NCBI GenBank assembly: GCA_026129545.1
Contig: JAHCHX010000001.1
Coordinates: forward strand, 1,859,501 to 1,923,500
Reading direction: 5' to 3'
DNA: 64,000 bases
Source: Saprospiraceae bacterium
GTDB taxonomy: Bacteria > Bacteroidota > Bacteroidia > Chitinophagales > Saprospiraceae
Part shown: positions 28,453 to 39,764 of the stretch, in pieces
Position numbering within the stretch: the first letter of the stretch is position 1
Layout: each line of letters opens with the position of its first letter
The notes under the pieces: generated by a model
Database searches by the model: none
Seen by the model: the letters and a program-made list of their open reading frames with translations, nothing else
What the model was told of the DNA's origin: nothing
Made by a program: the position numbers and the translations under genes

Positions 28453-30309
28453 TTAGTAAACATCCTCCAGGTACCGCCGCTGCTTTTTCAAACCCTTCAA
28501 ATACTCCGCAGCAAAGTCCGCGTCGCGACCACTTTCTTTCTCAATGATTTGTAAAACAGCATTTTGCACATCGTGCGCCATCCTATCCTTGTCGCCGCAG
28601 ACGTAAAAAAACGCGCCGTTTTCAAGGCGTTCAAAAATTAGCCGGGAGCGTTCGAGCAGGCGATGCTGGACGTAAATCTTCTGCTCTTGGTCGCGGCTGA
28701 AAGCCACGTCGAGGCGGTCGAGTGTGCCGCGTTTGAGGTGATTGAGCCACTCGGTTTGGTAGAGAAAATCCGTCTCGAAATGCGGGTTTCCGAAGAACAA
28801 CCAGTTTTTACCGGAGCTGCCGCGTTCTGAGCGCTCTTCCACAAAAGCCCGGAATGGCGCCACGCCCGTGCCCGGCCCGACCATGATGATGTCCGCCGAA
28901 TCGTCGGCGGGCAGTTTGAAATATTCGTTGTGTTCGACAAAAACCGGCGCTGGTTCGTCCGCTAAAACCCTGTCAGTCAGGAAAGTAGAGGCCACACCCT
29001 GATGCGGGCGACCGTCGAAATCGTAGCGCACCGCCGCCACTGTCAGGTGCGCCTCGTCGGGATGCGCAGCTAGGCTGGAAGCGATGGAATAAAGGCGCGG
29101 CGGCATTTTTCGGAGAAAACCGAGCAGGATTTCTTCCGTCAGGTTTGCCGGAAATTCACGCAGCAAATCGGCCACATTGCGCCCCCAAAAGAATCGTTTG
29201 AGCGCGGCAGGGTCGTTGGGCAAGGTTTTGAGCGAAATATTTTTCGTTGCGTCAGCAAATTTGTCGAGCAGGTCGCGGGTCAAAACGGAGAGTTCGACCT
29301 CGCGAAGAATTTCCCGGAGCGGCGCTTCTTTTTCGTTGAAAATCAAAATTTTGTCGCCGTTTAACTTCGCAGCAGCAAGCACTTCCTCTACGAGTGAGTC
29401 GGAATTTTTGGGAAAAATGCCGAGCGAGTCGCCGGGTTCGTAAGTCAGGCCGGAGCCTTCGAGCGAAAGTTCCAGATGCCAGGTTTCTTTTTGCGAACCG
29501 CGTCCGTTGAGTTGGATTTTCTCCAGAATCGGCGCAGCGAAGGGGCGTTTGCGGTCGTGTTTTGGAGTAGTCAGGCGGTGACTCAAAGTCACCGCCTGAC
29601 TTACGCCGTTCGCAGTGACCGGGTGACTTGAAGTCACCCGGTCACTCTGGCTTTGTGTCTCCAACTTTTTCAAAACCGCCTCTGTCCACACCTCCACCGT
29701 TTCTTCAAAATCCACGTCACAGTCGGCGCGTTCGGCAAGGCGAGTGGCGCCAAGTGCCTGAAAACGAGCGTCAAACTCTTTTCCCGTCTGGCAAAACTGG
29801 AGGTAACTTTTGTCCCCCAAGCCGCACACGGCGAATCGCAACCCGTCCAATTTCGGCGCACGCGGACCGAGCAGCCAGCGGTGAAATTCCTCAGCAGATA
29901 CGGGCGGGTCGCCTTCACCCTGCGTGCTCACCACGAGCAGAACAATTTTTTCGTCTTTCAAATTTTTGGTCGGGTAGTCGTTCAAATCGGCGACGGCGAC
30001 TTCCCAGCCCTGCTCACGAACACGAGCGGCGACTTTGTTTGCCACTTTTTTGCTGTTGCCAGTTTGCGACCCGAAGAGGACGGTGACTTTTTCGGTCGTG
30101 TTCCCCGACTGTTGGATTGGCGCCAAATCGCTGACAGCAGCAGGATTGCCAGCCAAAGCCCTGACTTCGGCGGGTTGATGGCGAGCAATGGCGAGGCCAT
30201 AGAGAAAGCCGCTCAGCCAGAGTTGTTGTTCGGGCGAGTGGTCGGCGCTGAGTTTGCGGAGCAGGTCGTCCTGAAAGCCGACAGGCGGTTGCGGGAGTGT
30301 CGCGGTCAT
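28453..30309 (-). CDS. cysJ: Sulfite reductase flavoprotein (CysJ-type)
   Basis: Diflavin reductase of 618 aa that passes electrons from NADPH to CysI. Domain order: a short helical N-terminus; a flavodoxin-type FMN domain (about 75-215; LFGSQTGNSKKVA, STQGEGDPP, CGLGDKSYLQFC); a linker; an FAD-binding domain (about 260-470; YEPGDSLGIFP, PRLYSIASS, VASTFLTDR); and an NADP domain (about 480-618; MVGPGTGVAPFRAFVEER, FFYVCGDKDRMAHDV). It ends in RYLEDVY, like CysJ. Two tandem palindromes encode linker residues 222-247. The upstream neighbour in the operon is cobA. Confidence 0.94.
   Translation of the reverse strand: MTATLPQPPVGFQDDLLRKLSADHSPEQQLWLSGFLYGLAIARHQPAEVRALAGNPAAVSDLAPIQQSGNTTEKVTVLFGSQTGNSKKVANKVAARVREQGWEVAVADLNDYPTKNLKDEKIVLLVVSTQGEGDPPVSAEEFHRWLLGPRAPKLDGLRFAVCGLGDKSYLQFCQTGKEFDARFQALGATRLAERADCDVDFEETVEVWTEAVLKKLETQSQSDRVTSSHPVTANGVSQAVTLSHRLTTPKHDRKRPFAAPILEKIQLNGRGSQKETWHLELSLEGSGLTYEPGDSLGIFPKNSDSLVEEVLAAAKLNGDKILIFNEKEAPLREILREVELSVLTRDLLDKFADATKNISLKTLPNDPAALKRFFWGRNVADLLREFPANLTEEILLGFLRKMPPRLYSIASSLAAHPDEAHLTVAAVRYDFDGRPHQGVASTFLTDRVLADEPAPVFVEHNEYFKLPADDSADIIMVGPGTGVAPFRAFVEERSERGSSGKNWLFFGNPHFETDFLYQTEWLNHLKRGTLDRLDVAFSRDQEQKIYVQHRLLERSRLIFERLENGAFFYVCGDKDRMAHDVQNAVLQIIEKESGRDADFAAEYLKGLKKQRRYLEDVY
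29569..29646. repeat. Two tandem 33-bp palindromes in the CysJ linker
   Basis: Element 1 (29569-29601) has arms AGTCAGGCGGTGACT / AGTCACCGCCTGACT with spacer CAA. Element 2 (29614-29646) has arms AGTGACCGGGTGACT / AGTCACCCGGTCACT with spacer TGA. Both are perfect 15-3-15 palindromes, separated by 12 bp, and read in frame. The two are related to each other (GGTGACT core). Confidence 0.95.
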
Positions 30310-30370
30310 GGATTTTGAATTGAAGATGAGAGAGTTAGAAGAGGGGTTGAAAAAGGTTGAGGTTGAATGC

Positions 30371-30406
30371 CACGTTTACGAAACTTTTTGAAGTTTCGTA
30401 AACGTG
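30371..30406. repeat. Palindrome at the cobA 3' end
   Basis: Perfect 16-bp arms (CACGTTTACGAAACTT / AAGTTTCGTAAACGTG) with a TTTG spacer. It encodes the last residues of CobA (FTKLQKVS region) and contains its stop codon. It could also act as an intercistronic hairpin. Confidence 0.88.
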
Positions 30407-31218
30407 GTCTCGTCCAGCGTGTAGTTGTTTTGAAACCTGTGTCGCACCACCTCCCCAATCACAATCACGGCCGGGCTTCTAATGCCCGATTCCTGCACTT
30501 TTTCGACGATGTCGGCGACCGTTCCGAAGACTTCTCGCTGGGTTGGCAAAGTGGCGTTTTGAATCACGGCTACGGGCATATCGGTTTTCCCAGCAGTCAT
30601 AAAGGCCAGCGTGATGTCGGCGATTTTTGCGATGCCCATGAGGACAACGATGGTCGCATCGGAGTCGGCAGCGGTAAAAATTTCGGGATTCAAATCGCCC
30701 GTATCGGTGGTGGCGGTCAACGCCCAAAAACCCCGGCTCGCGCCGCGCGTCGTGACAGCGATGCCCGCCGCGCCCGCTCCGGCTATGGCGCTCGATACAC
30801 CGGGGATATATTCCACCGGAATGCCCTGGCTTTGAGCGTATTGCATTTCTTCCAACCCACGCCCGAACACGAATGGGTCGCCGCCTTTGAGCCGCACGAC
30901 ATGGCCACAGCAATGGGCATAAGCCACGATGCGCTCGTTGATTTCTTCCTGCGTGAAGGCTTTTTCGCCACGCCGCTTGCCGACATACACTTTCGCCGCG
31001 CTGGGCGAGGCGTAGCTCAACAATTCTTCATTGACCAAAGCATCATACAGCACAGCGTCGGCGCTTTGCAAAGCCTTGACGGCTTTCAAGGTGATGTGTT
31101 CGGGGTCGCCGATGCCTGCGCCGACGACGCTGAGGCGGGGCTGGATATTTTTCTGAACAGGCTGGCTGATGATGGTGCCGCGTTCGTTGATGAGTTGAAA
31201 ACCAATGAGATGGGACAT
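30376..31218 (-). CDS. cobA: Uroporphyrinogen-III C-methyltransferase
   Basis: SAM-dependent methyltransferase of 280 aa that converts uroporphyrinogen III to precorrin-2, the first step to siroheme. Motifs: LSVVGAGIGDPEHITLKAVKAL (Gly-rich loop), ADAVLYDALVNEELL, YVGKRRGEKAFTQEEIN, VVRLKGGDPFVFGRGLEE and PGVSSAIAGAGAAGIAVTTRG. The substrate is handed to the CysG-type domain of the fusion encoded at 20010-21569. An N-terminal ~25-residue extension precedes the domain, and the extreme C-terminus comes from a palindrome. It lies between cysN and cysJ on one strand, consistent with a single siroheme/sulfite reductase operon. Confidence 0.94.
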   Translation of the reverse strand: MSHLIGFQLINERGTIISQPVQKNIQPRLSVVGAGIGDPEHITLKAVKALQSADAVLYDALVNEELLSYASPSAAKVYVGKRRGEKAFTQEEINERIVAYAHCCGHVVRLKGGDPFVFGRGLEEMQYAQSQGIPVEYIPGVSSAIAGAGAAGIAVTTRGASRGFWALTATTDTGDLNPEIFTAADSDATIVVLMGIAKIADITLAFMTAGKTDMPVAVIQNATLPTQREVFGTVADIVEKVQESGIRSPAVIVIGEVVRHRFQNNYTLDETTFTKLQKVS

Positions 31219-31280
31219 GATGTTTTTATTTTTTTGACAGGATTATCATGATTTACAAGATTGTTTTTTGTCGCGATTTT

Positions 31281-31352
31281 TTGTCATCCTGTAAGGATCT
31301 GTCCGCTCGTAGTTTGCTCTCGCGACGTGGACAGATTCCTACGGAATGACAA
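31281..31352. repeat. Inverted repeat at the cysN 3' end
   Basis: The arms TTGTCATCCTGTAAGGATCT... and ...AGATTCCTACGGAATGACAA pair over 26 bp with about five mismatches around a 20-bp loop. It encodes the last ~22 residues of CysN and includes its stop. A lone GACAGGATTATCATGATTTAC arm lies just beyond, at 31234-31260. Confidence 0.8.
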
Positions 31353-32603
31353 AGAATCTGGCGCGTGGAGCATCCCTGCCGCGACGGTGTCGAAGGTGTT
31401 TGCATTAATCAAAATCAGGCCGCCGGTGGCGCGGTTTTTCTTGTAAGCGTCGAACACGAGCGGCTGAGCAGTACGGAGCCGGACTTGGGCGATGTCGTTG
31501 AGTTTCAGTTGTTCGGCAGGTTGCTGCTCAAACGTGTGTACGTCGGTGCGGTGGCGAATTTCCCTGACGATGGCCTTGACGGTAGCGGCATTGTGACGCA
31601 GCAAGTAGCGGTCGCCGACTTGTAGCGGGCGCTCGCTCATCCAGCAGATGCCGAGTTCAATGTCTTGGCTTACAGCGGGTTGCGCGTCTTCGAGGCGCAC
31701 AATCGAGTCGCCGCGCGAGATGTCAATATCATCTTCCAAATGCAGGACGACAGGCTGCGGCGCAAAGGCTTCTTCGACTTCTTGCTGGTGGACTTCGATG
31801 GCCTTGATAGTGGTCTCGATGCCTGCCGGCAACACTCGCACCCGGTCTCCTTTTTTGAAAAAACCGCTGCGAATCGCCCCCGCATAGGCCCGGTAATCGT
31901 GCAATTCTTCCATGCGCGGACGGATGACGTATTGTACCTGAAAACGCGCTTCGTCTTCCGGCAAATCGTGGCTCAGTTCGACGGTTTCCAAATGTTCGAG
32001 CAATGTCGGCCCCTCGTACCAAGTCGTGTTTTGCGAACGGCTCACGACGTTGTCGCCGACGTAGGCACTGATTGGGATGAACAAAACTTCTTGCAAATCA
32101 AGTTTTTGTGCCAGTTTTTGATAGTCGGCGGCGATGCGGTAAAATGCCTCTTCTTCATAGCCAACCAAGTCCATTTTGTTCACGGCCACCACGATGTGGG
32201 GGATGCCCATGAGCGACGCGACGAGGCTGTGGCGGTGGGTTTGCTCCACCACGCCGTGTCGTGCGTCAATCAGGATGATGGCGAGGTCAGCGTTGCTCGC
32301 CCCGGTCACCATGTTGCGGGTGTATTGAACGTGACCCGGCGCGTCGGCGATGATGAATTTTCGGCGCGGGGTGTTGAAATACTTGTAAGCCACATCAATC
32401 GTAATGCCCTGCTCGCGCTCGGCGCGGAGGCCGTCGGTGAGCAACGAGAGGTCGAGTTCGCCGTCGGGCTTGTTGCGGCTTTGGCGTTCGAGCGTGTGCA
32501 GGATGTCGTGCGAAACGGCCTTCGAGTCGTAGAGTAAGCGACCGATTAAGGTGCTTTTGCCGTCGTCCACGGAGCCTGCGGTTATGAATCGTAGAATGTT
32601 CAT
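31284..32603 (-). CDS. cysN: Sulfate adenylyltransferase subunit 1 (GTPase)
   Basis: GTPase subunit of ATP sulfurylase; GTP hydrolysis drives APS formation by CysD. It has 439 aa from ATG 32603 (a TTG two codons upstream is also possible). Motifs: P-loop AGSVDDGKSTLIGRLLYDSK, switch region EREQGITIDVAYKYF, DAPGHVQYTRNMVTGAS, NKMDLVGY, then beta-barrel domains II and III with GICWMSERPL. No APS-kinase (CysC) domain is fused at the C-terminus, consistent with an APS-using CysH downstream. The last ~22 residues are encoded by an inverted repeat and look non-native. Confidence 0.95.
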   Translation of the reverse strand: MNILRFITAGSVDDGKSTLIGRLLYDSKAVSHDILHTLERQSRNKPDGELDLSLLTDGLRAEREQGITIDVAYKYFNTPRRKFIIADAPGHVQYTRNMVTGASNADLAIILIDARHGVVEQTHRHSLVASLMGIPHIVVAVNKMDLVGYEEEAFYRIAADYQKLAQKLDLQEVLFIPISAYVGDNVVSRSQNTTWYEGPTLLEHLETVELSHDLPEDEARFQVQYVIRPRMEELHDYRAYAGAIRSGFFKKGDRVRVLPAGIETTIKAIEVHQQEVEEAFAPQPVVLHLEDDIDISRGDSIVRLEDAQPAVSQDIELGICWMSERPLQVGDRYLLRHNAATVKAIVREIRHRTDVHTFEQQPAEQLKLNDIAQVRLRTAQPLVFDAYKKNRATGGLILINANTFDTVAAGMLHAPDSLSFRRNLSTSREQTTSGQILTG

Positions 32604-32619
32604 TGTCAAATTGTTGTAC

Positions 32620-32677
32620 GCCGGAATGCTGTTCCGGCTTTGATTTATTCATTGGATTCGCCGGAACAGCGTTCCGG
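32620..32677. repeat. Two GGAAC-type palindromes between cysN and cysD
   Basis: GCCGGAATGCTGTTCCGGC (32620-32638) and CCGGAACAGCGTTCCGG (32661-32677) are each palindromic and are also inverted copies of one another. Related units lie at 33657 and 57362. Confidence 0.85.
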
Positions 32678-32684
32678 TGTGCAG

Positions 32685-33593
32685 TTAGAAATACCCGTTC
32701 TTTTTCCGGTCTTCCATGGCGGCCTCAGAGAGTCTGTCGTCCAACCTTGTCGCGCCGCGTTCGGAAATTTTTGTTGTCAAAATGTCTTGAATAATGTCAT
32801 CTACCGTTGTGGCTAGGCTCTCAACAGCGGCGGTACAAGTGGCATCGCCGACGGTGCGGAAGCGTACGTCGCGGACGGTGATTTCATCTTCCGGGTCGAG
32901 GCGGATGTGTTCGGTAACGGCGAGCAATTGGCCGCCAGGAGTGACTACGAGGTCGCGGGAATGGGAAAAATAAATCTCTGGCAGTTCGATACCCTCGCGG
33001 CGGATGTAGTTCCACACGTCGAGTTCCGTCCAGTTGGAAATCGGAAACACGCGCACGTTCTCGCCTTTGCGAATGGCGCCGTTGTAAATGTCCCAGAGTT
33101 CGGGGCGCTGACGTTTTGGGTCCCAAGCGCCGAACTCGTCGCGTATGCTGAAAATGCGTTCTTTGGCGCGGGCTTTTTCCTCATCGCGTCGTGCGCCACC
33201 GATGCAGGCATCAAATTCAAACTCCTCAATCGTTTCCAATAAAGTATTGGCTTGCAGCGCGTTGCGGCTGGGATATTTGCCTGTTCCGTCGGTCAAGCCT
33301 TGCCGCCGAATCGTATCCTCTACTTTTCGGACGATGAGTTTTTCTCCCAACTGTGCTGCCAAACGGTCGCGGTATTCGATGACTTCCCGGAAATTGTGAC
33401 CTGTGTCAATATGCACCAATGGGAACGGAAACTTGCCAGGGCGAAAGGCTTTTTCGGCCAGACGCACGAGCGTGATGGAGTCCTTTCCTCCTGAAAAAAG
33501 TAAGGCGGGCCGCTCGAATTGACCAGCGACTTCGCGCAAGATGTGGATGGCTTGGGCTTCTAAATTATCAAGATAATCAAAGCGTTTTGACAT
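32685..33593 (-). CDS. cysD: Sulfate adenylyltransferase subunit 2
   Basis: Catalytic subunit of ATP sulfurylase, which makes APS from sulfate and ATP together with CysN. The 302 aa from ATG 33593 match the family start (YLDNLEAQAIHILREV). Motifs: PP-loop ALLFSGGKDSITLVRLAEKAF, FPLVHIDTGHNFREVIEYRD, IGGARRDEEKARAKERIFSIRDEFGAWDPKRQRPELW, and the C-terminal LSEAAMEDRKKNGYF. The open frame continues upstream to 33722, where an extra Met (33656) overlaps the cysH end, but the shorter start fits the family better. Spacing to cysN is about 80 bp and is filled by palindromes. Confidence 0.95.
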   Translation of the reverse strand: MSKRFDYLDNLEAQAIHILREVAGQFERPALLFSGGKDSITLVRLAEKAFRPGKFPFPLVHIDTGHNFREVIEYRDRLAAQLGEKLIVRKVEDTIRRQGLTDGTGKYPSRNALQANTLLETIEEFEFDACIGGARRDEEKARAKERIFSIRDEFGAWDPKRQRPELWDIYNGAIRKGENVRVFPISNWTELDVWNYIRREGIELPEIYFSHSRDLVVTPGGQLLAVTEHIRLDPEDEITVRDVRFRTVGDATCTAAVESLATTVDDIIQDILTTKISERGATRLDDRLSEAAMEDRKKNGYF

Positions 33594-33652: not shown

Positions 33653-34384
33653 TCATGCCGGAATACCTTTCCGGCCTACATCGTGGAGGCCGCATTCTTT
33701 TTTGGAAGCATCCTCCCACCACCAGCGACCGGCACGAAAATCCTCCCCCTCGCGGATGGCGCGAGTGCAGGGAGCGCAGCCGATGCTGACAAAACCCTTG
33801 TCGTGCAGGGGGTTGTAGGGAATGTTGTGCTCGCGCACGAAGTCGCGCACTTGTTGGAAAGTCCAGTCGAAGAGTGGGTGGAATTTGAAAAGTTGGTGTG
33901 GTTCATCCCATTCGAGGGAAGTCATGTTGTGGCGGTTGGGCGATTGTTCGGCGCGGATGCCAGTGACCCAGAGGTGTTGCCCTTTCAAAGCCCGGCTGAG
34001 CGGCTCCACTTTGCGGATGTGGCAACATTCCTTGCGGTTTTCGACGGAGTGGTAGAAACTGTTGGGGCCTTTTTCGGCCAATAGCGTTTCGACGGCGGCG
34101 GCTTGAGGGTAAAAAACCTCGATGGGTTGTTGGTAGCGTTCGAGGGTACGCGCCCATGTGGAGTAAGTTTCCTGAAAATTGCGTCCCGTGTCGAGGGTGA
34201 AAACGCGAATCGGGAGTTTGTTCGTAAAAATCAGGTGCGCGACGACTTGGTCTTCGATACCAAAACTGGTGCTGAACACGGCCCGGCCGGCGAACTGTTC
34301 GGCCAGAAAAGCCAGCGATTCGAGCGGACTTCGCTTTCGCAAATTGGATTCGATGTCTGGGAGTTTGTGTGTTGAATTTAGCAT
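33653..34384 (-). CDS. cysH: Adenylyl-sulfate reductase (APS-type CysH)
   Basis: Thioredoxin-dependent reductase releasing sulfite from APS. The 243-aa protein has the SFGIEDQVVAHL loop, FTLDTGRNFQETY, and both cysteine pairs that bind a [4Fe-4S] cluster in APS reductases: KECCHIRKVEPL and GCAPCTRAI. The catalytic Cys near the end is KKECGLH. The cluster pairs, together with the absence of a CysC kinase, indicate APS rather than PAPS as substrate. The final GRKGIPA is encoded by a palindrome. It is the first enzyme gene after a Cys-run leader ORF and terminator (34489-34652), so expression is probably attenuated by cysteine supply. Confidence 0.94.
   Translation of the reverse strand: MLNSTHKLPDIESNLRKRSPLESLAFLAEQFAGRAVFSTSFGIEDQVVAHLIFTNKLPIRVFTLDTGRNFQETYSTWARTLERYQQPIEVFYPQAAAVETLLAEKGPNSFYHSVENRKECCHIRKVEPLSRALKGQHLWVTGIRAEQSPNRHNMTSLEWDEPHQLFKFHPLFDWTFQQVRDFVREHNIPYNPLHDKGFVSIGCAPCTRAIREGEDFRAGRWWWEDASKKECGLHDVGRKGIPA
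33657..33675. repeat. GCCGGAA-type palindrome at the cysH 3' end
   Basis: GCCGGAATACCTTTCCGGC is self-complementary apart from the centre. It codes for the last residues of CysH, just before the stop at 33653-33655, and lies within the longest cysD open frame. Confidence 0.8.
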
Positions 34385-34488: not shown

Positions 34489-34526
34489 AAAAAGCCCCTC
34501 GGTGTGCGTACACCGAAGGGCTTTTA
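34489..34526 (-). terminator. Intrinsic terminator of the cysH cysteine attenuator
   Basis: On the minus strand AAAAGCCCTTCGGTGT and ACACCGAGGGGCTTTT form a 16-bp stem with one G-U pair and a four-base loop, followed by TTTTTGTTTTG. It begins about 19 bases after the leader ORF stop and ends about 105 bases before the cysH ATG. Its 5' arm (CTTCGGTG) can pair with CACCCGAAG in the leader. Confidence 0.9.
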
Positions 34527-34544
34527 TGCTGAAATGTGTTTTTG

Positions 34545-34652
34545 TCAAACTTGGATTTTGTTCGCCAAAAATGCATCGCAGCCGCTTCGGGTGACCGGAG
34601 TGGGACAGCAACAGCAACAACAAATGGCGAATTGCAAGGCGTTGAAATTCAT
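34545..34652 (-). CDS. Leader peptide with six consecutive Cys codons, upstream of cysH
   Basis: ORF of 35 codons starting M-N-F-N-A-L-Q-F-A-I, then CCCCCC (codons TGT TGT TGC TGT TGC TGT), then PTPVTRSGCDAFLANKIQV. It stops 19 bases before a strong intrinsic terminator and precedes cysH. The start context and peptide resemble the ORFs at 39629-39709 (M-N-F-D-A-F-K-N-A-T, five Cys, Pro) and 38688-38792. The nucleotide stretch GAAGCGGCTGCGATG after the Cys run is shared with the cysM leader. The role is inferred: ribosome stalling at the Cys codons when Cys-tRNA is short frees a leader segment that disrupts the terminator and allows cysH operon transcription. The peptide itself need have no function. 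Confidence 0.88.
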   Translation of the reverse strand: MNFNALQFAICCCCCCPTPVTRSGCDAFLANKIQV

Positions 34653-34711
34653 GCGATGTAAAATTGAGAATTTGTTGAAAACGAACAACAAACAACCGTC
34701 AACGAGCACGA

Positions 34712-34746
34712 CACGTTTGCTAAACCTTGCAGGTTTGGTAAACGTG
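34712..34746. repeat. Palindrome of the ACGTTTAC family after the MoeZ-type gene
   Basis: The arms CACGTTTGCTAAACCT and AGGTTTGGTAAACGTG (16 bp, two mismatches that become wobble pairs in RNA) flank TGC. It lies between the activating-enzyme stop and the cysH leader ORF and may end the upstream transcript. Confidence 0.85.
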
Positions 34747-34758
34747 CTCATACGGTGT

Positions 34759-35922
34759 TCAAGATTTTGCCAATTCCGGCTGCACTTCTTCCAAATAGGC
34801 CAAAATACCGCCTTTCAAATTGTACAGATTGTCGAAACCAAATTTGTCTTCCAACTCCCGAATGGCTTTGGCGCTGCGCACGCCTGAACGGCAATGCACG
34901 ACAACTTTTGTGTCTTTTTCAAAACGAGCGGCGTTTGCGGCAACCGTGGCGAGCGGAATCAATTCGGCGCCGATGTTCGCGGCTTCGTATTCGTGTGGTT
35001 CACGCACGTCAATCAACTGGTATTTCTCGCCGAGCGTTTGCCATTGCAAAAATTCCTGTACGGTGATTTCTTTCACCGGGCGCTCCACGACTTTCATCCC
35101 GCAAAACATTTCGTAGTCAATGAGTTGCGTGATGGTCGGATTTTTCCCGTTGATGGGATTGTCGTCGCGGCGTTTGATTTTGAAGGTGCGGGTTTCAAAA
35201 TTTAAAGCGTCAAAAATGAAGAAACGACCACTCAACGGCTCTCCTACCCCCGTGATAACTTTGATGACTTCGCTGGCCTGCATACTGCCGATGATGCCGG
35301 GCAAAACGCCCAAAACCCCGCCCTCTGCGCAGCTCGGCACCAAACCCGGCGGCGGCGGTGTGGGATAGAGGTCGCGGTAGTTTGGCCCCCACTCCCCTGC
35401 GGCGTTGCGATAGTTGAACACCGACACCTGCCCTTCAAACTGGAAAATGGACGCATAAACGTTTGTTTTTCCGAGCAATACGCAAGCATCGTTCACGAGG
35501 TAGCGCGTCGGAAAATTGTCCGTGCCGTCGGCCACCACGTCGTAGTCCTTGACGAGGTCGAGGGCGTTTTGAGAGTTGATGAGCGTGTCGTACACGTTGA
35601 TTTGAATGTGTGGGTTCAAGGCTTCAAGGCGACGTTTGGCGGCTTCGACTTTGGGTTGGCCGACTGATTCCACGCCGAACAAGACCTGGCGTTGCAGGTT
35701 GCTGTCGTCCACGCGGTCGAAGTCCACGATACCGATGGTGCCGACGCCCGCTGCTGCGAGATAGAGCAACACAGGACTACCGAGGCCACCCGAACCGATG
35801 ACCAAAACTTTGGCGGCTTTGAGTTTTTGCTGGGCTTCGAGGCCAAATTCCGGGATGATGATGTGGCGGTTGTAACGCGCCAGCTCTGGTTTTGAAAATT
35901 GAATTGCTGTATGAGACGGCAT
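34759..35922 (-). CDS. moeB: MoeB/MoeZ-type sulfur-carrier activating enzyme with rhodanese domain
   Basis: E1-like enzyme of 387 aa that adenylates the C-terminal Gly-Gly of a MoaD/ThiS-type carrier and then transfers sulfur. Residues about 1-255 form the ThiF/MoeB domain (YNRHIIIPEFGLEAQQKLKAAKVLVIGSGGLGSP, DFDRVDDSNLQRQ, DGTDNFPTRYLVNDAC, GLVPSCAEGGVLG). Residues about 285-387 form a rhodanese domain with active-site Cys in VVHCRSGVRSAKAI. The usual first zinc CxxC pair is absent, as in MoeZ-like forms (GPNYRDLYPTPPPPG). It lies directly downstream of the carrier, JAMM protease and cysM genes, pointing to cysteine biosynthesis through a carrier thiocarboxylate, although molybdopterin or thiamine roles are possible. 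Confidence 0.92.
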   Translation of the reverse strand: MPSHTAIQFSKPELARYNRHIIIPEFGLEAQQKLKAAKVLVIGSGGLGSPVLLYLAAAGVGTIGIVDFDRVDDSNLQRQVLFGVESVGQPKVEAAKRRLEALNPHIQINVYDTLINSQNALDLVKDYDVVADGTDNFPTRYLVNDACVLLGKTNVYASIFQFEGQVSVFNYRNAAGEWGPNYRDLYPTPPPPGLVPSCAEGGVLGVLPGIIGSMQASEVIKVITGVGEPLSGRFFIFDALNFETRTFKIKRRDDNPINGKNPTITQLIDYEMFCGMKVVERPVKEITVQEFLQWQTLGEKYQLIDVREPHEYEAANIGAELIPLATVAANAARFEKDTKVVVHCRSGVRSAKAIRELEDKFGFDNLYNLKGGILAYLEEVQPELAKS

Positions 35923-36006
35923 TGTTTTTTGCTTTTAAAGTTTTGAAAATGAAGAGTGTTGAGGGGTTGAGATGGTCGAAAAATCGGCACTCAACCCCTT
36001 AAATTT

Positions 36007-36279
36007 TTAGCCTCCGGCAATCGCAGGCACGATACTCACGACCGTGCCTGCCTGCAAAGGCGTTTTGCCCTCCTGCAAGTCGCGGATATCGTCCTCACCG
36101 ATGAAGATGTTGAGAAAAGTGCGAATCTGGCCTCCCTCGTCGAACAGGTGTTTTTTGAGGTCGGGATAATTTGCCGAAAGGTCGAGCAAGGCTTCTTCGA
36201 CGGTGCCAGCCGAGATGTCCAACTTGGCTGTGTTGTTGGTGAATTTGCGCAAAGGCGTGGGAATGATGACGGTTGCCAT
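36007..36279 (-). CDS. MoaD/ThiS-family sulfur carrier (CysO-like)
   Basis: Ubiquitin-fold carrier of 90 aa ending exactly in Gly-Gly (VSIVPAIAGG), the residue pair that is adenylated and thiocarboxylated. Family features include IPTPLRKFTNNTAKLDI at the start, a central ALLDLSANYPDLKKHLFDEGGQIRTFLNIFI and the DDIRDLQEGKTPL loop. Its length and its neighbours (JAMM protease upstream, MoeZ-type enzyme 84 bp downstream, cysM at the head of the run) match the CysO-Mec+-CysM-MoeZ set known from actinobacteria, so I infer a cysteine-synthesis role. The 5' flank is a GTTGATGAGG repeat array beginning about 15 bp before the ATG. Confidence 0.92.
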   Translation of the reverse strand: MATVIIPTPLRKFTNNTAKLDISAGTVEEALLDLSANYPDLKKHLFDEGGQIRTFLNIFIGEDDIRDLQEGKTPLQAGTVVSIVPAIAGG

Positions 36280-36293
36280 AATTTTATTTGCTT

Positions 36294-36522
36294 GGTTGAT
36301 AAAAGTTGATGAGGGTTGATGAGGGTTGATGAAGGTTGATGAGGGTTGATGAGGGTTGATGAAGGTTGATGAGGGTTGATGAGGGTTGATGAGGGTTGAT
36401 GAGGGTTGATAAAGGTTGATGAGGGTTGATGAAGGTTGATGAGGGTTGATGAGGGTTGATAAAGGTTGATGAGGGTTGATGAGGGTTGATGAAGGTTGAT
36501 GAGGGTTGATAAAGGTTGATGG
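36294..36522. repeat. 10-bp tandem array (GGTTGATGAG units), left arm
   Basis: About 23 units of GTTGATGAGG with AAGG and TAAAGG variants. The RNA made from the minus strand would be CCCTCATCAA-type and almost free of G. It forms an inverted repeat with the array at 36711-36822 across the inserted MITE-like element. Confidence 0.95.
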
Positions 36523-36534
36523 TCAACATAATAA

Positions 36535-36702
36535 GAGAGTGTTCAGAAAACTGTGTCATCCCAAGGGAGACGATAAGAAAACACAGAGGCACGAAGGGCA
36601 CAGAGTTTTGGTTTTCAATAATTTACATTCCCTTAAGCGCGGCGTGTATTGCGTAAAAAGAAAACATCCGGTATGTTTTGACACACTTTTCTGAACACTC
36701 TC
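36535..36702. mobile_element. 168-bp MITE-like element with 8-bp target duplication
   Basis: The ends are inverted repeats starting GAGAGTGTTCAGAAAA; 23 of 24 terminal bases match. The element is flanked on both sides by CATAATAA (36527-36534 and 36703-36710), an 8-bp target-site duplication. It has no coding capacity. The termini and duplication length are like those of IS256-type elements (inference), so a full-length IS elsewhere in the genome may mobilise it. It is inserted at the loop of the inverted GTTGATGAGG array pair between the JAMM protease and carrier genes. Confidence 0.9.
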
Positions 36703-36710
36703 CATAATAA

Positions 36711-36822
36711 ACCTTTATCAACCTTCATCAACCCTCATCAACCCTCATCAACCTTCATCAACCCTCATCAACCTTCATCAACCCTCATCAACCCTCATCA
36801 ACCTTTATCAACCCTCATCAAC
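36711..36822. repeat. 10-bp tandem array (CCTCATCAAC units), right arm
   Basis: About eleven units of CCCTCATCAA/CCTTCATCAA in inverted orientation relative to 36294-36522. Its last unit encodes the C-terminal VDEG and the stop codon of the JAMM protease gene. Confidence 0.95.
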
Positions 36823-37245
36823 CACTAATTCGTTGATGGTTTCTTCTTCAAATTGCTGGTCGTCGTTCAGCCGCCACGAGCGGGTGTGGTCAATTGCTCC
36901 ATTCTGCACAGAAACAATAAGATAGGAGAAAAACGGCTGCGCGGCGACGCGGTCGTGTTCGGATGGGATGGCCGGATGGTTTGGGTGCGAATGATAGACG
37001 GCCAAGAGCGTTTGGCCTGTTTTTTCGGCATAACGTTCGGCTTTGAGGTAGTCTTTGGGGGCGATTTCAAAGCGGCGGCGCTTGTCGCCTTCTTTGGCGT
37101 TGTTGACCACCAAAATATCCGTCAAAACGCGGTCGCCGCCTTCTTCTTTGCCAAACAAAAAGCCGCAGCACTCGTCAGGGAAGGCCTGTATGGCATCGTC
37201 CAGCATCATTTGTTCGATGTTCGGTTCGATTTGTAACATAGTCAT
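36808..37245 (-). CDS. JAMM/Mov34 metalloprotease (Mec+-like)
   Basis: Zinc protease of 145 aa of the JAB1/MPN family. The motif is complete: an upstream Glu in FPDECCGFLFG, then YHSHPNHPAIPSEHDRVAA (HxHP-x6-S-x2-D). Mec+ in mycobacteria cleaves the cysteine-CysO adduct to release free cysteine and regenerate the carrier. The adjacent MoaD/ThiS carrier and cysM genes make that the most likely role here. I start at ATG 37245 (MTM...); a second ATG is two codons on. The last residues (VDEG) and the stop are supplied by the tandem array. Confidence 0.9.
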   Translation of the reverse strand: MTMLQIEPNIEQMMLDDAIQAFPDECCGFLFGKEEGGDRVLTDILVVNNAKEGDKRRRFEIAPKDYLKAERYAEKTGQTLLAVYHSHPNHPAIPSEHDRVAAQPFFSYLIVSVQNGAIDHTRSWRLNDDQQFEEETINELVVDEG

Positions 37246-37286
37246 TGAGAGAAATTTAGGTCATTGGGAGTGATTTTTTAGGTCAT

Positions 37287-37320
37287 ACGTTTACTAAACC
37301 TCCAAAGGTTTAGTAAACGT
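37287..37320. repeat. Palindrome ACGTTTACTAAACCT between cysM and the JAMM gene
   Basis: The arms ACGTTTACTAAACCT / AGGTTTAGTAAACGT are perfect 15-mers around a CCAA spacer. It lies 13 bp past the cysM stop and 42 bp before the JAMM ATG. Same sequence family as the elements at 24218, 30371 and 34712. Confidence 0.92.
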
Positions 37321-37332
37321 GGACAAGTGTTT

Positions 37333-38271
37333 TTAAAAGAGTTTTTTGATGACTTCGCCGTATTTGTCGGCGTTGTCGGGCAAAATGGTGAAGACCGTCC
37401 CGGTCTCCAATTTTTCGGCAACTTTGATAGCGCCAGCCAAATTGGCCGCCGACGAGGGGCTGAGCAACAAGCCTTCGTGTTGTTTGGCGGCTTTGATGAT
37501 TTCGTAGGCTTCGGTGGTGTCAATTTCGAGAAACTCGTCGGCCAAGTTTTTATCGTAAATGCCCGGCACCACCGCCGTCTCCAAATGTTTCCAGCCTTCC
37601 AAACCATGCAAAGCCGAGTCCGGCTGCAATGCGACCAACTGAATATCAGGATTCAACTCTTTCAGCCGTCGGCCAGTGCCAGTGAAAGTCCCGGTTGTAC
37701 CCAAGCCTGCCACGAAATGTGTGACTTGCGGGAAAGACTCAAAAATTTCCAGTGCCGTTTGCTGGTAGTGTGCCTTCCAGTTGTTGTCGTTTTTGTATTG
37801 GTCGGCGTAGAAATAAAGGTCGGGGCGCTCGGTCGCCAGTTCGCGGGCGACTTCCTGTGCGCCGTCGGTTCCTTCAAATTTTGAGGTAAAAATGATTTCT
37901 GCGCCCAACGATTGCAGGATGGTTTTGCGCTCCGGCGAGGCATTTTCCGGTAGGCAAAGTGCTACCCGCAAACCCAGTTCTTTGGCGATGGCCGCGTAAG
38001 CGATGCCCGTGTTGCCACTCGTCGCATCCAGCAGGATTTTGCCGCGATGCAAGTCGCCGTTTTGCACCGCCGCTCGGATGATATTGAACGCCGCCCGTGC
38101 TTTCACGCTGCCGGATAGTTGTTCCCACTCTTTTTTGGCGTAAATCCGAGCGCCTTTTTGGGAAAACAAGCCGCTTATATGGTGAACGGGCGTGTTGCCA
38201 ATCTTCTGTCCCACTTGCCGCAAGCGGGAAAGCAAATCAATGTCGGCCTGAATTAAGTGTTCGATGTACAT
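37333..38271 (-). CDS. cysM: Cysteine synthase (CysM-type)
   Basis: PLP-dependent beta-replacement enzyme of 312 aa. Motifs: IGNTPVHHISGLF, KKEWEQLSGSVKARAAFNII with the PLP lysine, LLDATSGNTGIAYAAIAKELGL, FVAGLGTTGTFTGTGRRLKE, and LLLSPSSAANLAGA near the end. It makes cysteine from an activated serine and either sulfide or a carrier thiocarboxylate. The neighbours favour the carrier route, but the sequence alone does not decide it. I take the start at ATG 38271 (MYIEHLIQAD). A continuous frame extends to 38769 only because the tandem array has no stops. A Cys-run leader and terminator lie further upstream. Confidence 0.93.
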   Translation of the reverse strand: MYIEHLIQADIDLLSRLRQVGQKIGNTPVHHISGLFSQKGARIYAKKEWEQLSGSVKARAAFNIIRAAVQNGDLHRGKILLDATSGNTGIAYAAIAKELGLRVALCLPENASPERKTILQSLGAEIIFTSKFEGTDGAQEVARELATERPDLYFYADQYKNDNNWKAHYQQTALEIFESFPQVTHFVAGLGTTGTFTGTGRRLKELNPDIQLVALQPDSALHGLEGWKHLETAVVPGIYDKNLADEFLEIDTTEAYEIIKAAKQHEGLLLSPSSAANLAGAIKVAEKLETGTVFTILPDNADKYGEVIKKLF

Positions 38272-38600
38272 TGATAAAAGTTGATGAGGGTTGATGAGGG
38301 TTGATGAGGGTTGATGGGGGTTGATGGGGGTTGATGAGGGTCGATGAGGGTTGATGAGGGTTGATGAGGGTTGATGAGGGTTGATGAGGGTTGATGAGGG
38401 TCGATGAGGGTTGATGAGGGTTGATGAGGGTTGATGAGGGTTGATGAGGGTCGATGAGGGTCGATGAGGGTTGATGAGGGTTGATGAGGGTTGATGAGGG
38501 TTGATGAGGGTTGATGAGGGTTGATGAGGGTTGATGAGGGTTGATGAGGGTTGATGAGGGTTGATGAGGGTTGATGAGGGTTGATGAGGGTTGATAATCA
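38272..38600. repeat. 10-bp tandem array (about 32 TTGATGAGGG units) in the cysM leader
   Basis: Units are spaced exactly 10 bp apart from 38281 to 38590. Variants are TTGATGGGGG (38311, 38321) and TCGATGAGGG (38341, 38401, 38451, 38461). The array lies between the attenuator terminator and the cysM ATG. The minus-strand transcript would be (CCCUCAUCAA)n: G-free, C-rich and unstructured. All three frames are open, which explains the long spurious ORFs. Confidence 0.97.
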
Positions 38601-38619
38601 ACTTTAAAGGCCCGTATAA

Positions 38620-38661
38620 ACAAAAAAACAAAAGCCCTACGGCTCGATACCGAAGGGCTTT
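38620..38661 (-). terminator. Intrinsic terminator of the cysM cysteine attenuator
   Basis: On the minus strand AAAGCCCTTCGG and CCGTAGGGCTTT form a 12-bp stem with one mismatch and a seven-base loop, followed by TTTTGTTTTTTTG. It starts about 26 bases after the leader ORF stop. Its 5' arm and loop (CTTCGGTAT) are complementary over nine bases to ATACCGAAG (38729-38737) within the leader ORF. Confidence 0.9.
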
Positions 38662-38687
38662 GCGCAATTCTCTTTTTGAACACAGGG

Positions 38688-38792
38688 TCATGTCTGTACT
38701 CCCGTCAGCCCAAAAGTCATCGCAGCCGCTTCGGTATTCCGAGCAGGACAGCAACAACAGCAACAACAAGTGGCCGATAAAAACGAGTGCAT
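38688..38792 (-). CDS. Leader peptide with seven consecutive Cys codons, upstream of cysM
   Basis: ORF of 34 codons: M-H-S-F-L-S-A-T, then CCCCCCC (TGT TGT TGC TGT TGT TGC TGT), then P-A-R-N-T-E-A-A-A and a tail ending GVQT. An intrinsic terminator follows at 38620-38661, with cysM beyond it. The A-T-Cys(n)-P core matches the leader ahead of the peroxiredoxin (A-T-CCCCC-P). The bases GAAGCGGCTGCGATG after the run match the cysH leader. ATACCGAAG in this ORF is perfectly complementary to CTTCGGTAT in the terminator, an antiterminator pairing. I infer ribosome-mediated attenuation sensing Cys-tRNA. Confidence 0.88.
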   Translation of the reverse strand: MHSFLSATCCCCCCCPARNTEAAAMTFGLTGVQT

Positions 38793-38808
38793 GACTATGT
38801 TGAGTTTT

Positions 38809-38875
38809 TTAATGACCTTTTTTAATGACCCTTAATGACCTTTCTTAATGACCCTTAATGACCTTTTTTAATCCT
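38809..38875. repeat. Short tandem repeat of TTAATGACC units
   Basis: Five to six imperfect copies of TTTTTTAATGACC / CTTAATGACC lie between the peroxiredoxin stop and the cysM leader ORF. They cover the place where a cysM promoter would be expected. I see no TAnnTTTG box here, so the cysM unit may depend on read-through from the peroxiredoxin gene. Confidence 0.85.
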
Positions 38876-39509
38876 GCAAATCAGGCTGCGGGGTGTAGCG
38901 CAAGTAAGGTTTCACGATGTTGACCCCTTTCGGGAATTTTTTGATGGCATCTTCCGTCGAGACGGCTGGCACCACAATCACATCTTCGCCGCGTTGCCAG
39001 TCAGCGGGTGTTGCGACGCTGTAATTGGCCGTGAGTTGAAGTGAGTCCAGTACGCGAAGCACCTCGTGGAAATTGCGTCCCGTCGAGGCTGGGTAAGTGA
39101 TGGTCAATTTCACTTTTTTGTCCGGGCCGATGATAAACAGCGAGCGGACTGTAAAGTTTTCGGAAGAATTTGGGTGAATCATGCCGTAGAGGTCAGCTAC
39201 TTTGCGGTCGGGGTCGGCGATAATAGGAAAGTTGACGGTTGTGTTTTGGGTCTCGTTGATGTCTTTCACCCAGCCTTCGTGTTTGTCGAGCGGGTCCACG
39301 CTCACGGCGAGCACTTTGGTGTTGCGGCGGCGGAACTCCTCTTGGAGATGTGCCGTTTTGCCGAGTTCTGTGGTGCAGACGGGGGTGTAGTCGGCAGGAT
39401 GGGAGAACAGGATGCCCCAACCGTCGCCGAGGTATTCGTAAAAGTCAACTTCTCCGGCGGTGGTTTGGGCTTTGAAGTTGGGGGCGATGTCGCCAAGTCG
39501 TAAACTCAT
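38868..39509 (-). CDS. Peroxiredoxin (Prx6/1-Cys type)
   Basis: Thiol peroxidase of 213 aa reducing peroxides. The peroxidatic Cys is in SHPADYTPVCTTELGKTA (about residue 45), and the Prx6-type C-terminal half has VRSLFIIGPDKKVKLTITYPASTGRNFHEVLRVLDSLQLT, then PADWQRGEDVIVVPAVSTEDA, which is diagnostic of the Prx6 subgroup. It is probably cytoplasmic. It is preceded by a five-Cys leader ORF and a terminator, so its expression is probably tied to cysteine supply like cysM and cysH. Upstream on the same strand is the DsbA/FrnE-like gene. Confidence 0.94.
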   Translation of the reverse strand: MSLRLGDIAPNFKAQTTAGEVDFYEYLGDGWGILFSHPADYTPVCTTELGKTAHLQEEFRRRNTKVLAVSVDPLDKHEGWVKDINETQNTTVNFPIIADPDRKVADLYGMIHPNSSENFTVRSLFIIGPDKKVKLTITYPASTGRNFHEVLRVLDSLQLTANYSVATPADWQRGEDVIVVPAVSTEDAIKKFPKGVNIVKPYLRYTPQPDLQD

Positions 39510-39541
39510 GGTTGATGGTAGATTTAGTTATGGTAGTGGTG

Positions 39542-39580
39542 AAAAAAATAGCCCTCCGGCATTTAGCGCGCCGGAGGGCT
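39542..39580 (-). terminator. Intrinsic terminator of the peroxiredoxin cysteine attenuator
   Basis: A perfect 11-bp stem AGCCCTCCGGC / GCCGGAGGGCT with a nine-base loop (39550-39580), followed on the minus strand by ATTTTTTTC. It lies about 48 bases past the leader stop and about 33 bases before the peroxiredoxin ATG. CTCCGGC in its 5' arm pairs with GCCGGAG in the leader. Confidence 0.92.
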
Positions 39581-39628
39581 GTCTGATAAAACTTGTTGGG
39601 AGAAAATTTATGTCCTGATGAATTTCAA

Positions 39629-39709
39629 CTAACAAGCCATCGTCGCTGCTCCGGCAGGCCGGGGACAACAGCAACAACAAGTGGCGTTTTTAAAAGCGTC
39701 AAAATTCAT
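39629..39709 (-). CDS. Leader peptide with five consecutive Cys codons, upstream of peroxiredoxin
   Basis: ORF of 26 codons: M-N-F-D-A-F-K-N-A-T, then CCCCC (TGT TGT TGC TGT TGT), then P-R-P-A-G-A-A-T-M-A-C and stop. A near-perfect Bacteroidota promoter (39714-39745) ends only a few bases before the ATG, so the transcript should begin at or just before the start codon. A terminator follows at 39542-39580. The opening M-N-F-[DN]-A-[FL] is shared with the cysH leader, and A-T-Cys-Pro with the cysM leader, so the three have a common origin. The role is inferred as cysteine attenuation. Confidence 0.88.
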   Translation of the reverse strand: MNFDAFKNATCCCCCPRPAGAATMAC

Positions 39710-39713
39710 GCGG

Positions 39714-39745
39714 CAAATCTACGGGCGGGTTTTTCAGAAAAACAA
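39714..39745 (-). promoter_or_regulatory. Promoter of the peroxiredoxin leader
   Basis: TTTG ending at 39743, then 21 bases, then TAGATTTG (39714-39721): both boxes of the Bacteroidota consensus with accepted spacing. The predicted start site is within a few bases of the leader ATG at 39709, giving little or no 5' untranslated region. Confidence 0.7.
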
Positions 39746-39764
39746 ACACCCGACGTGAATTTTT

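Follow-up and report, generated by a model that had tools for sequence, protein, structure and literature searches.

Polycysteine leader ORFs with terminator-like hairpins before three sulfur gene groups of a Saprospiraceae genome point to ribosome-sensed cysteine attenuation

Ribosome-mediated attenuators of the his and trp operons consist of a run of regulatory codons, an antiterminator and a terminator. For cysteine (Cys), attenuators with polycysteine short open reading frames (ORFs) were reportedly shown in mycobacteria by Canestrari et al. in 2020 (Mol Microbiol 114:93), where the ORFs are said to be leaderless and to open a hidden ribosome site. The present analysis concerns a stretch of 64,000 nucleotides (the window) from contig JAHCHX010000001.1 of a Saprospiraceae bacterium (Bacteroidota), in which three short ORFs with runs of Cys codons stand before the gene groups that begin with prx, cysM and cysH, with a terminator-like hairpin after each ORF. 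Each group is very probably under a ribosome-sensed transcription attenuator for charged Cys-tRNA, and the common anatomy suggests one device for the three transcription units. The three elements of the his and trp attenuators are present here too; the differences are that the signal is Cys and that three RNA strands suffice in most leaders, without a general protector helix.

The mycobacterial polycysteine ORFs are described as translation attenuation in one account (PMC13236596). Like them, the ORFs found here stand ahead of cysteine-metabolism operons, with one signal for several operons; unlike that translational system, they are accompanied by a terminator and a competing antiterminator, often with two units in series. 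In Actinobacteria, candidate Cys leaders were reported before the cys operons of Mycobacterium and P. acnes and before cbs of B. longum, and that study found no conserved terminator hairpins (Seliverstov et al. 2005; PMC1262725). Cys-codon runs occur in both cases, whereas every unit counted here has a terminator. The tandem attenuators of Salmonella mgtCBR respond to ATP and to proline, one signal more than the units here (Lee and Groisman 2012; PMC3641672); two attenuators per leader are also found here, but both units carry Cys runs. Within Bacteroidota, leader-peptide attenuation was noted before amino-acid operons of Flavobacterium psychrophilum (PMC9723704) and Bacteroides thetaiotaomicron was described as having leader-like short ORFs (PMC7366714); cysteine leaders are not mentioned in the sections consulted of the two accounts. 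A search of the open-licence PMC literature, with subscription papers and supplements outside its scope, found no Cys attenuator in Bacteroidota. Compared with the known Cys-run leaders, the terminators, the competing antiterminator and the serial doubling on one signal are likely new, as a transcriptional variant in Bacteroidota.

All three leader ORFs were found on the minus strand, with the positions, lengths and Cys runs that the original prediction had given. The prx leader (39709-39629; MNFDAFKNATCCCCCPRPAGAATMAC) has 26 codons with 5 consecutive Cys codons at 39679-39665, the cysM leader (38792-38688; MHSFLSATCCCCCCCPARNTEAAAMTFGLTGVQT) 34 codons with 7 at 38768-38748, and the cysH leader (34652-34545; MNFNALQFAICCCCCCPTPVTRSGCDAFLANKIQV) 35 codons with 6 at 34622-34605. 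As in the his and trp leaders, the runs code for the amino acid that is made downstream, except that prx itself is not a biosynthesis gene. The predicted gaps of 19-48 bases between ORF and hairpin were confirmed as 48 (prx), 26 (cysM) and 19 nt (cysH) from the stop codon, and profile matches bore out the downstream gene sets, namely prx, cysM-JAMM-carrier-MoeZ, and cysH-cysD-cysN onward. The common peptide motifs that had been proposed held in part: M-N-F-[DN]-A is present in two leaders and absent from the cysM leader, which starts with MHSFLSA, and A-T-Cys(n) fails for the cysH leader, which reads A-I-Cys. The terminator-like hairpins, also on the minus strand, are at 39580-39550 before prx (-24.0 kcal/mol, z -5.0), at about 38661-38631 before cysM (-17.4 kcal/mol, z -4.7, computed on 38661-38630) and at 34525-34490 before cysH (-26.3 kcal/mol, z -6.8). 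Each is followed by a T-tail, and an intrinsic terminator is predicted from the sequence past each leader ORF, ahead of the first gene.

A search of the window's genome (G000, 5.86 Mb; 5,857,581 bases) for five Cys codons and a following CC found the three window leaders and no other place, with none in a reversed control; four Cys codons with CC occur at 6 places versus 3 in the control. No remaining five-Cys or four-Cys+CC place of G000 passes as a leader with terminator. Several cysteine-metabolism operons of one genome, at three sites, are thus preceded by Cys-run ORFs. An Rfam search of the window gave no match at gathering score, and no known T-box or riboswitch family was found by it. 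A promoter-like element, TTTG-N21-TAGATTTG at 39714..39746 (minus strand), ends 4 nt 5' of the prx leader ATG; it resembles the promoter consensus of Bacteroidota. The same element was looked for before the cysM and cysH leaders of the window and was not found there. Among 49 first leaders, TAnnTTTG was present at most 160 nt ahead of the Cys run in 19, with 7.8 expected.

In all three window leaders, the stretch that directly follows the Cys run (strand A) can pair by complementarity with the 5' arm of the next hairpin (strand B). In the prx leader, A is GCCGGAG (39649..39655, minus strand), B contains CTCCGGC and the A:B duplex was -21.8 kcal/mol (p 0.005 against shuffled A). In the cysM leader, A is ATACCGAAGCGGCT (38724..38737, minus strand) and B is AGCCCTTCGGTAT, with A:B at -20.7 kcal/mol and 0 of 200 shuffles as low, and in the cysH leader A is ACCCGAAGCGGCT (34580..34592, minus strand) and B is AGCCCTTCGGT, with -21.0 kcal/mol (p 0.005). 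The complementarity has a bulge in the cysM and cysH leaders, and the prx pair differs from the cysM and cysH pairs by a compensatory change. Since B is complementary to both A and the 3' arm (C), the antiterminator A:B and the terminator B:C would exclude each other. When the RNA 3' of a ribosome placed on the first Cys codon was folded, A:B formed in all three leaders.

This complementarity extends to 74 unique leaders from related genomes, whose selection rested on run, ATG, stop and terminator, with A playing no part in it. The mean A:B energy was -14.27 kcal/mol compared with -9.45 kcal/mol with partners permuted (z -17, 0 of 20,000), while equal segments ahead of the run or after the terminator gave -4.9 and -5.2 kcal/mol; an initial comparison on 26 leaders agreed. 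A leader's own B was within the best tenth in 52 of the 74 and the very best in 14, and A:B reached p<0.05 against shuffled A in 41. In an alignment of 27 genus leaders, A:B was formed in 78.9% of cells, against 31-54% with the partner slid by 1 to 3 columns, and 23 cells were changed on both sides versus 11.4 in 500 shuffles, none of which reached 23. The number of further pair types for A:B was not unusual, being reached by 73 of 500 shuffles. B:C was formed in 94.4% of cells with 16 two-sided cells versus 3.3 in shuffles. Of 27 rows examined, 23 have the A motif, two of them repeating a locus; relative to the leader ORF it lies in frame 0 in 9 rows, in frame 1 in 1 and in frame 2 in 13, so that identical bases translate as RSGC, SKR or TEAA depending on frame. 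The peptide around the Cys run is not conserved; the Cys codons and the RNA motif are. As the motif is read in all three frames, it is the RNA and not the peptide that is conserved, and A would act as RNA. Complementarity, covariation and the geometry described below predict an antiterminator that competes with the terminator and is freed by a stalled ribosome.

The core of A begins at least 18 nt past the first Cys codon in 74/74 leaders, so a ribosome waiting there would leave A free. With the ribosome at the stop codon, at least half of the A core would be covered in 52 of the 74 and some of it touched in 62. When Cys-tRNA is scarce, the leading ribosome would wait in the Cys run with strand A uncovered; A would pair with B once B is transcribed, the terminator would be blocked, and RNA polymerase would continue into prx, cysM-JAMM-ThiS-moeZ or cysH-cysD-cysN. 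With ample Cys-tRNA, the ribosome would traverse the Cys codons and cover or pass A, B:C would form, and transcription would stop ahead of the genes. Two units in series before one operon, as in many relatives, are predicted to multiply these effects. The ORFs, Cys runs, hairpins, A:B complementarity with its covariation, geometry and conservation before sulfur genes are read from the sequence, and from them we infer leader translation, stalling, termination and a response to cysteine.

Conservation was assessed on the best-scoring loci listed, which are not a random draw. In the genus set of 21 genomes, cysH orthologs (at least 66% identity) had leader and terminator in 11/11 loci, with the leader 624 nt upstream in two and two leaders in series in each of L369, L372 and L373. 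A loss of the Cys run in relatives that keep the hairpin, which had been named as a refuting case, is contradicted for cysH, because all 11 genus loci keep both. Leaders were also found at 4 of 5 genus cysM loci and at 6 of 9 testable prx loci (at least 82% identity), and at least four Cys codons were present at none of 12 Prx paralogs (27-45% identity) of the genus. In the family, cysM orthologs (at least 48% identity) had a leader by strict criteria in 12 of 17 loci; the misses were L228 (run with too weak a hairpin), L221 (contig end, 56 nt upstream) and L220, L231 and L235 (none). Other cysteine synthases of the family (36-39% identity) had none in 13, including L242, whose run lacks both ATG and terminator, and L238, which has only 27 nt upstream and was still counted. 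The NirA/Sir-family reductase heading sir-SUMT-cysH operons had a leader in 23 of 30 family loci, and two complete units in series were present in 12 of the 30. Among the sir misses, L256 and L269 have a run for which no terminator was found, L261 has three Cys and L264 a short upstream stretch; the others are L267, L277 and L278. L251 and L264, with about 300 nt upstream, were kept among the 30. Loci L387, L392 and L398, with too little DNA, were left out of the counts. Outside the family and within the same class, 0 of 27 sir loci had at least four Cys codons, with traces at L349 (CCC and a terminator) and at L348 and L360 (shorter Cys-rich ORFs). Given the conserved layout of leader and hairpin before sulfur genes, a ribosome awaiting cysteine there likely switches these genes on. 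The ribosome-mediated Cys attenuation of the original prediction is supported by the antiterminator strand, its covariation, the fitting geometry and this conservation.

Pattern scans, which carry no bias for genes, gave a similar set of targets. Two family scans with 60 loci listed (30 each) gave 11 strict leaders, which precede sir (7), cysM (1), cysS (1), an O-acetylhomoserine sulfhydrylase (1) and an ATP-grasp gene of the RimK/GSH-synthetase kind (1); a sulfur or cysteine gene is downstream in 10 of the 11, the eleventh being the ATP-grasp gene. For 20 other regions, several of them chosen because leaders were already seen there, no rate is given. The genus scan gave 11 distinct leaders among 69 of the loci listed (29 and a further 40), all before sulfur or cysteine genes: cysH or CysH-like (4), prx (1), serine-acetyltransferase-like cysE/EpsC (4) and cysK (2), named by profile scan for L438, L439 and L454 and by likeness for the others. 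A scan for a Cys run with AAAGCC gave at least 119 stretches, mostly noise, and only L134 (a Saprospiraceae metagenome-assembled genome), L190 and L217 were convincing; Sir of L217 and CysM of L190 are 64% and 57% identical to the queries used here. A six-Cys pattern matched in 217 of 395 genomes of the phylum, and of the 30 loci listed a single one, that of the window, qualified as having a strong terminator, so raw Cys-run counts are no evidence.

Several results weigh against the attenuator reading. The cysS gene would be an expected target of a Cys-tRNA sensor, though a leader was found at 0 of 30 family cysS loci. In the genus, no leader was found at cysM of G040 or at prx in 3 of 9 congeners, and the cysM leader L050/L385 (G141) has no stop ahead of its hairpin. 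Single leaders with weak A:B exist, such as the first leaders of L054 and L217. In 22 of the 74 leaders less than half of the A core lies under a ribosome placed at the stop codon, and in 12 none of it does; the 12 include the cysM and cysH leaders of the window, where the ribosome would be past A before it stops and masking must come from this passage or from a protector helix between run and A. Folding gave a strong run:A helix in the window's prx leader, and in the genus such a helix, G-U-rich and without two-sided changes, was predicted by RNAalifold; across the 74 leaders there was no trend towards one (mean z -0.35). Masking of A after the ribosome has passed is the weakest step of the model. 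A universal protector helix is not supported by that mean, and cysS was rejected as a core of the regulon on its count. Sporadic cysS cases were seen at L056, with a terminator, and at L080, without one. At L080, in a sister family, the ORF MFFLSHTCCCCCCC stops 63 nt 5' of the cysS start, and no terminator was found.

Other explanations of the Cys-run ORFs were considered. In the manner of mycobacteria, which have the same sensor according to one account (PMC13236596), a stalled ribosome could open a structure hiding the downstream start, with the hairpins incidental. The few runs for which no terminator was found (L256 and L269 before sir, L080 before cysS) would suit such translational attenuation, which we nevertheless consider unlikely, since strong T-tailed hairpins lie at a median of 60 nt past the run and the partner of A is the terminator arm, in many cases some hundred nt before the gene start (357 nt for the window's cysM). 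Less probable still is a sensor role of the nascent polycysteine peptide itself, which would respond to metal, thiol or redox state, stall its own ribosome and report redox stress rather than Cys-tRNA. Metal binding by Cys runs is conceivable and one target here is a peroxiredoxin, but the targets are mostly cysteine and sulfate-assimilation genes, the run length ranges from 4 to 9, and the surrounding peptide is not conserved while the Cys codons and RNA motif are.

Ordinary terminators of upstream genes might also lie beside chance runs of Cys codons, for instance on the reverse strand of polyglutamine. Consistent with chance, 49 of the 60 loci of the two family scans fail the leader criteria, few of the AAAGCC stretches convince, and L111, L114 and L176, with run and hairpin match, lie opposite open frames of 149-302 aa. 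This explanation is nonetheless already contradicted by the conservation of the leader at orthologous genes, the covariation of A:B and the control genes without leaders (cysS 0/30, other cysteine synthases 0/13, Prx paralogs 0/12), and is hardly credible. Attenuation by a ribosome sensing Cys-tRNA thus stays the preferred explanation.

Beyond the window, much of the cysteine regulon of the family is probably under ribosome control, with a frame-free RNA module of Cys run, A and terminator before sir, cysM, cysH, prx, cysE-like, cysK and other genes. The module is often doubled on one signal, and two such cysteine checks would make a steeper switch than a single attenuator; the module would also assign neighbours of unknown role, such as the RimK/GSH-synthetase-like ATP-grasp gene, to cysteine metabolism. 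If true, a cysteine attenuator in which terminator and antiterminator are both complete would be spread over a Bacteroidota family, which suggests a route to control of sulfate assimilation without a protein repressor in these bacteria. Single and double attenuators would form a natural series for asking why two sensors of the same signal stand in a row, and the RNA signature would point to new cysteine-related genes. Beside the mycobacterial system, the question arises whether Cys-run sensing evolved twice with different outputs.

The RimK/GSH-synthetase-like ATP-grasp gene follows a polycysteine leader and terminator in two genera (L059:8804-9763 and L327:397-1356) and is a candidate cysteine-using ligase. 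At L095 and L099, from another family of the same class, a gene starts about 55 nt past the end of the ORFs MSSKRNLFNFPKSQMQANMRMCCCCCCCCC and MSNNRNMFNLPKGRMHANMRMCCCCCCC. No terminator was found after these two ORFs and the protein downstream at L099 has no NCBIfam match; they are possibly Cys-run ORFs of another kind.

The genes downstream of the window leaders, all on the minus strand, were named by profile matches, several of which (e.g. cysM, MoeZ, SAMP, peroxiredoxin) score under the NCBIfam curated cut-offs. They are prx, a peroxiredoxin (AhpC-TSA with 1-cysPrx_C domain; 38868..39509), a cysM-type cysteine synthase (37333..38274; best TIGR01138/TIGR01136, below curated cut-offs), a JAMM protease (Prok-JAB; 36808..37245), a ThiS/SAMP-like sulfur carrier (36007..36279), a MoeZ/MoeB-like E1 with rhodanese domain (34759..35922), the (phospho)adenylylsulfate reductase cysH (33653..34384), and cysD, cysN, a uroporphyrinogen-III methyltransferase and cysJ after cysH (28453..33590). 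At 34759-38274, cysM thus stands together with the JAMM protease, the ThiS/SAMP-like carrier and the E1-like MoeZ. Most of the family's 17 cysM loci have this order, and the set resembles the protein-bound CysO/CysM cysteine pathway of mycobacteria. Within the sulfur cluster, a 10-bp repeat (GTTGATGAGG) forms three arrays at 38280-38595 (31.6 copies), 36294-36521 (22.8) and 36717-36823 (10.7, inverted). One array sits between the terminator of the cysM leader and cysM, and the copy number of the arrays may vary between strains.

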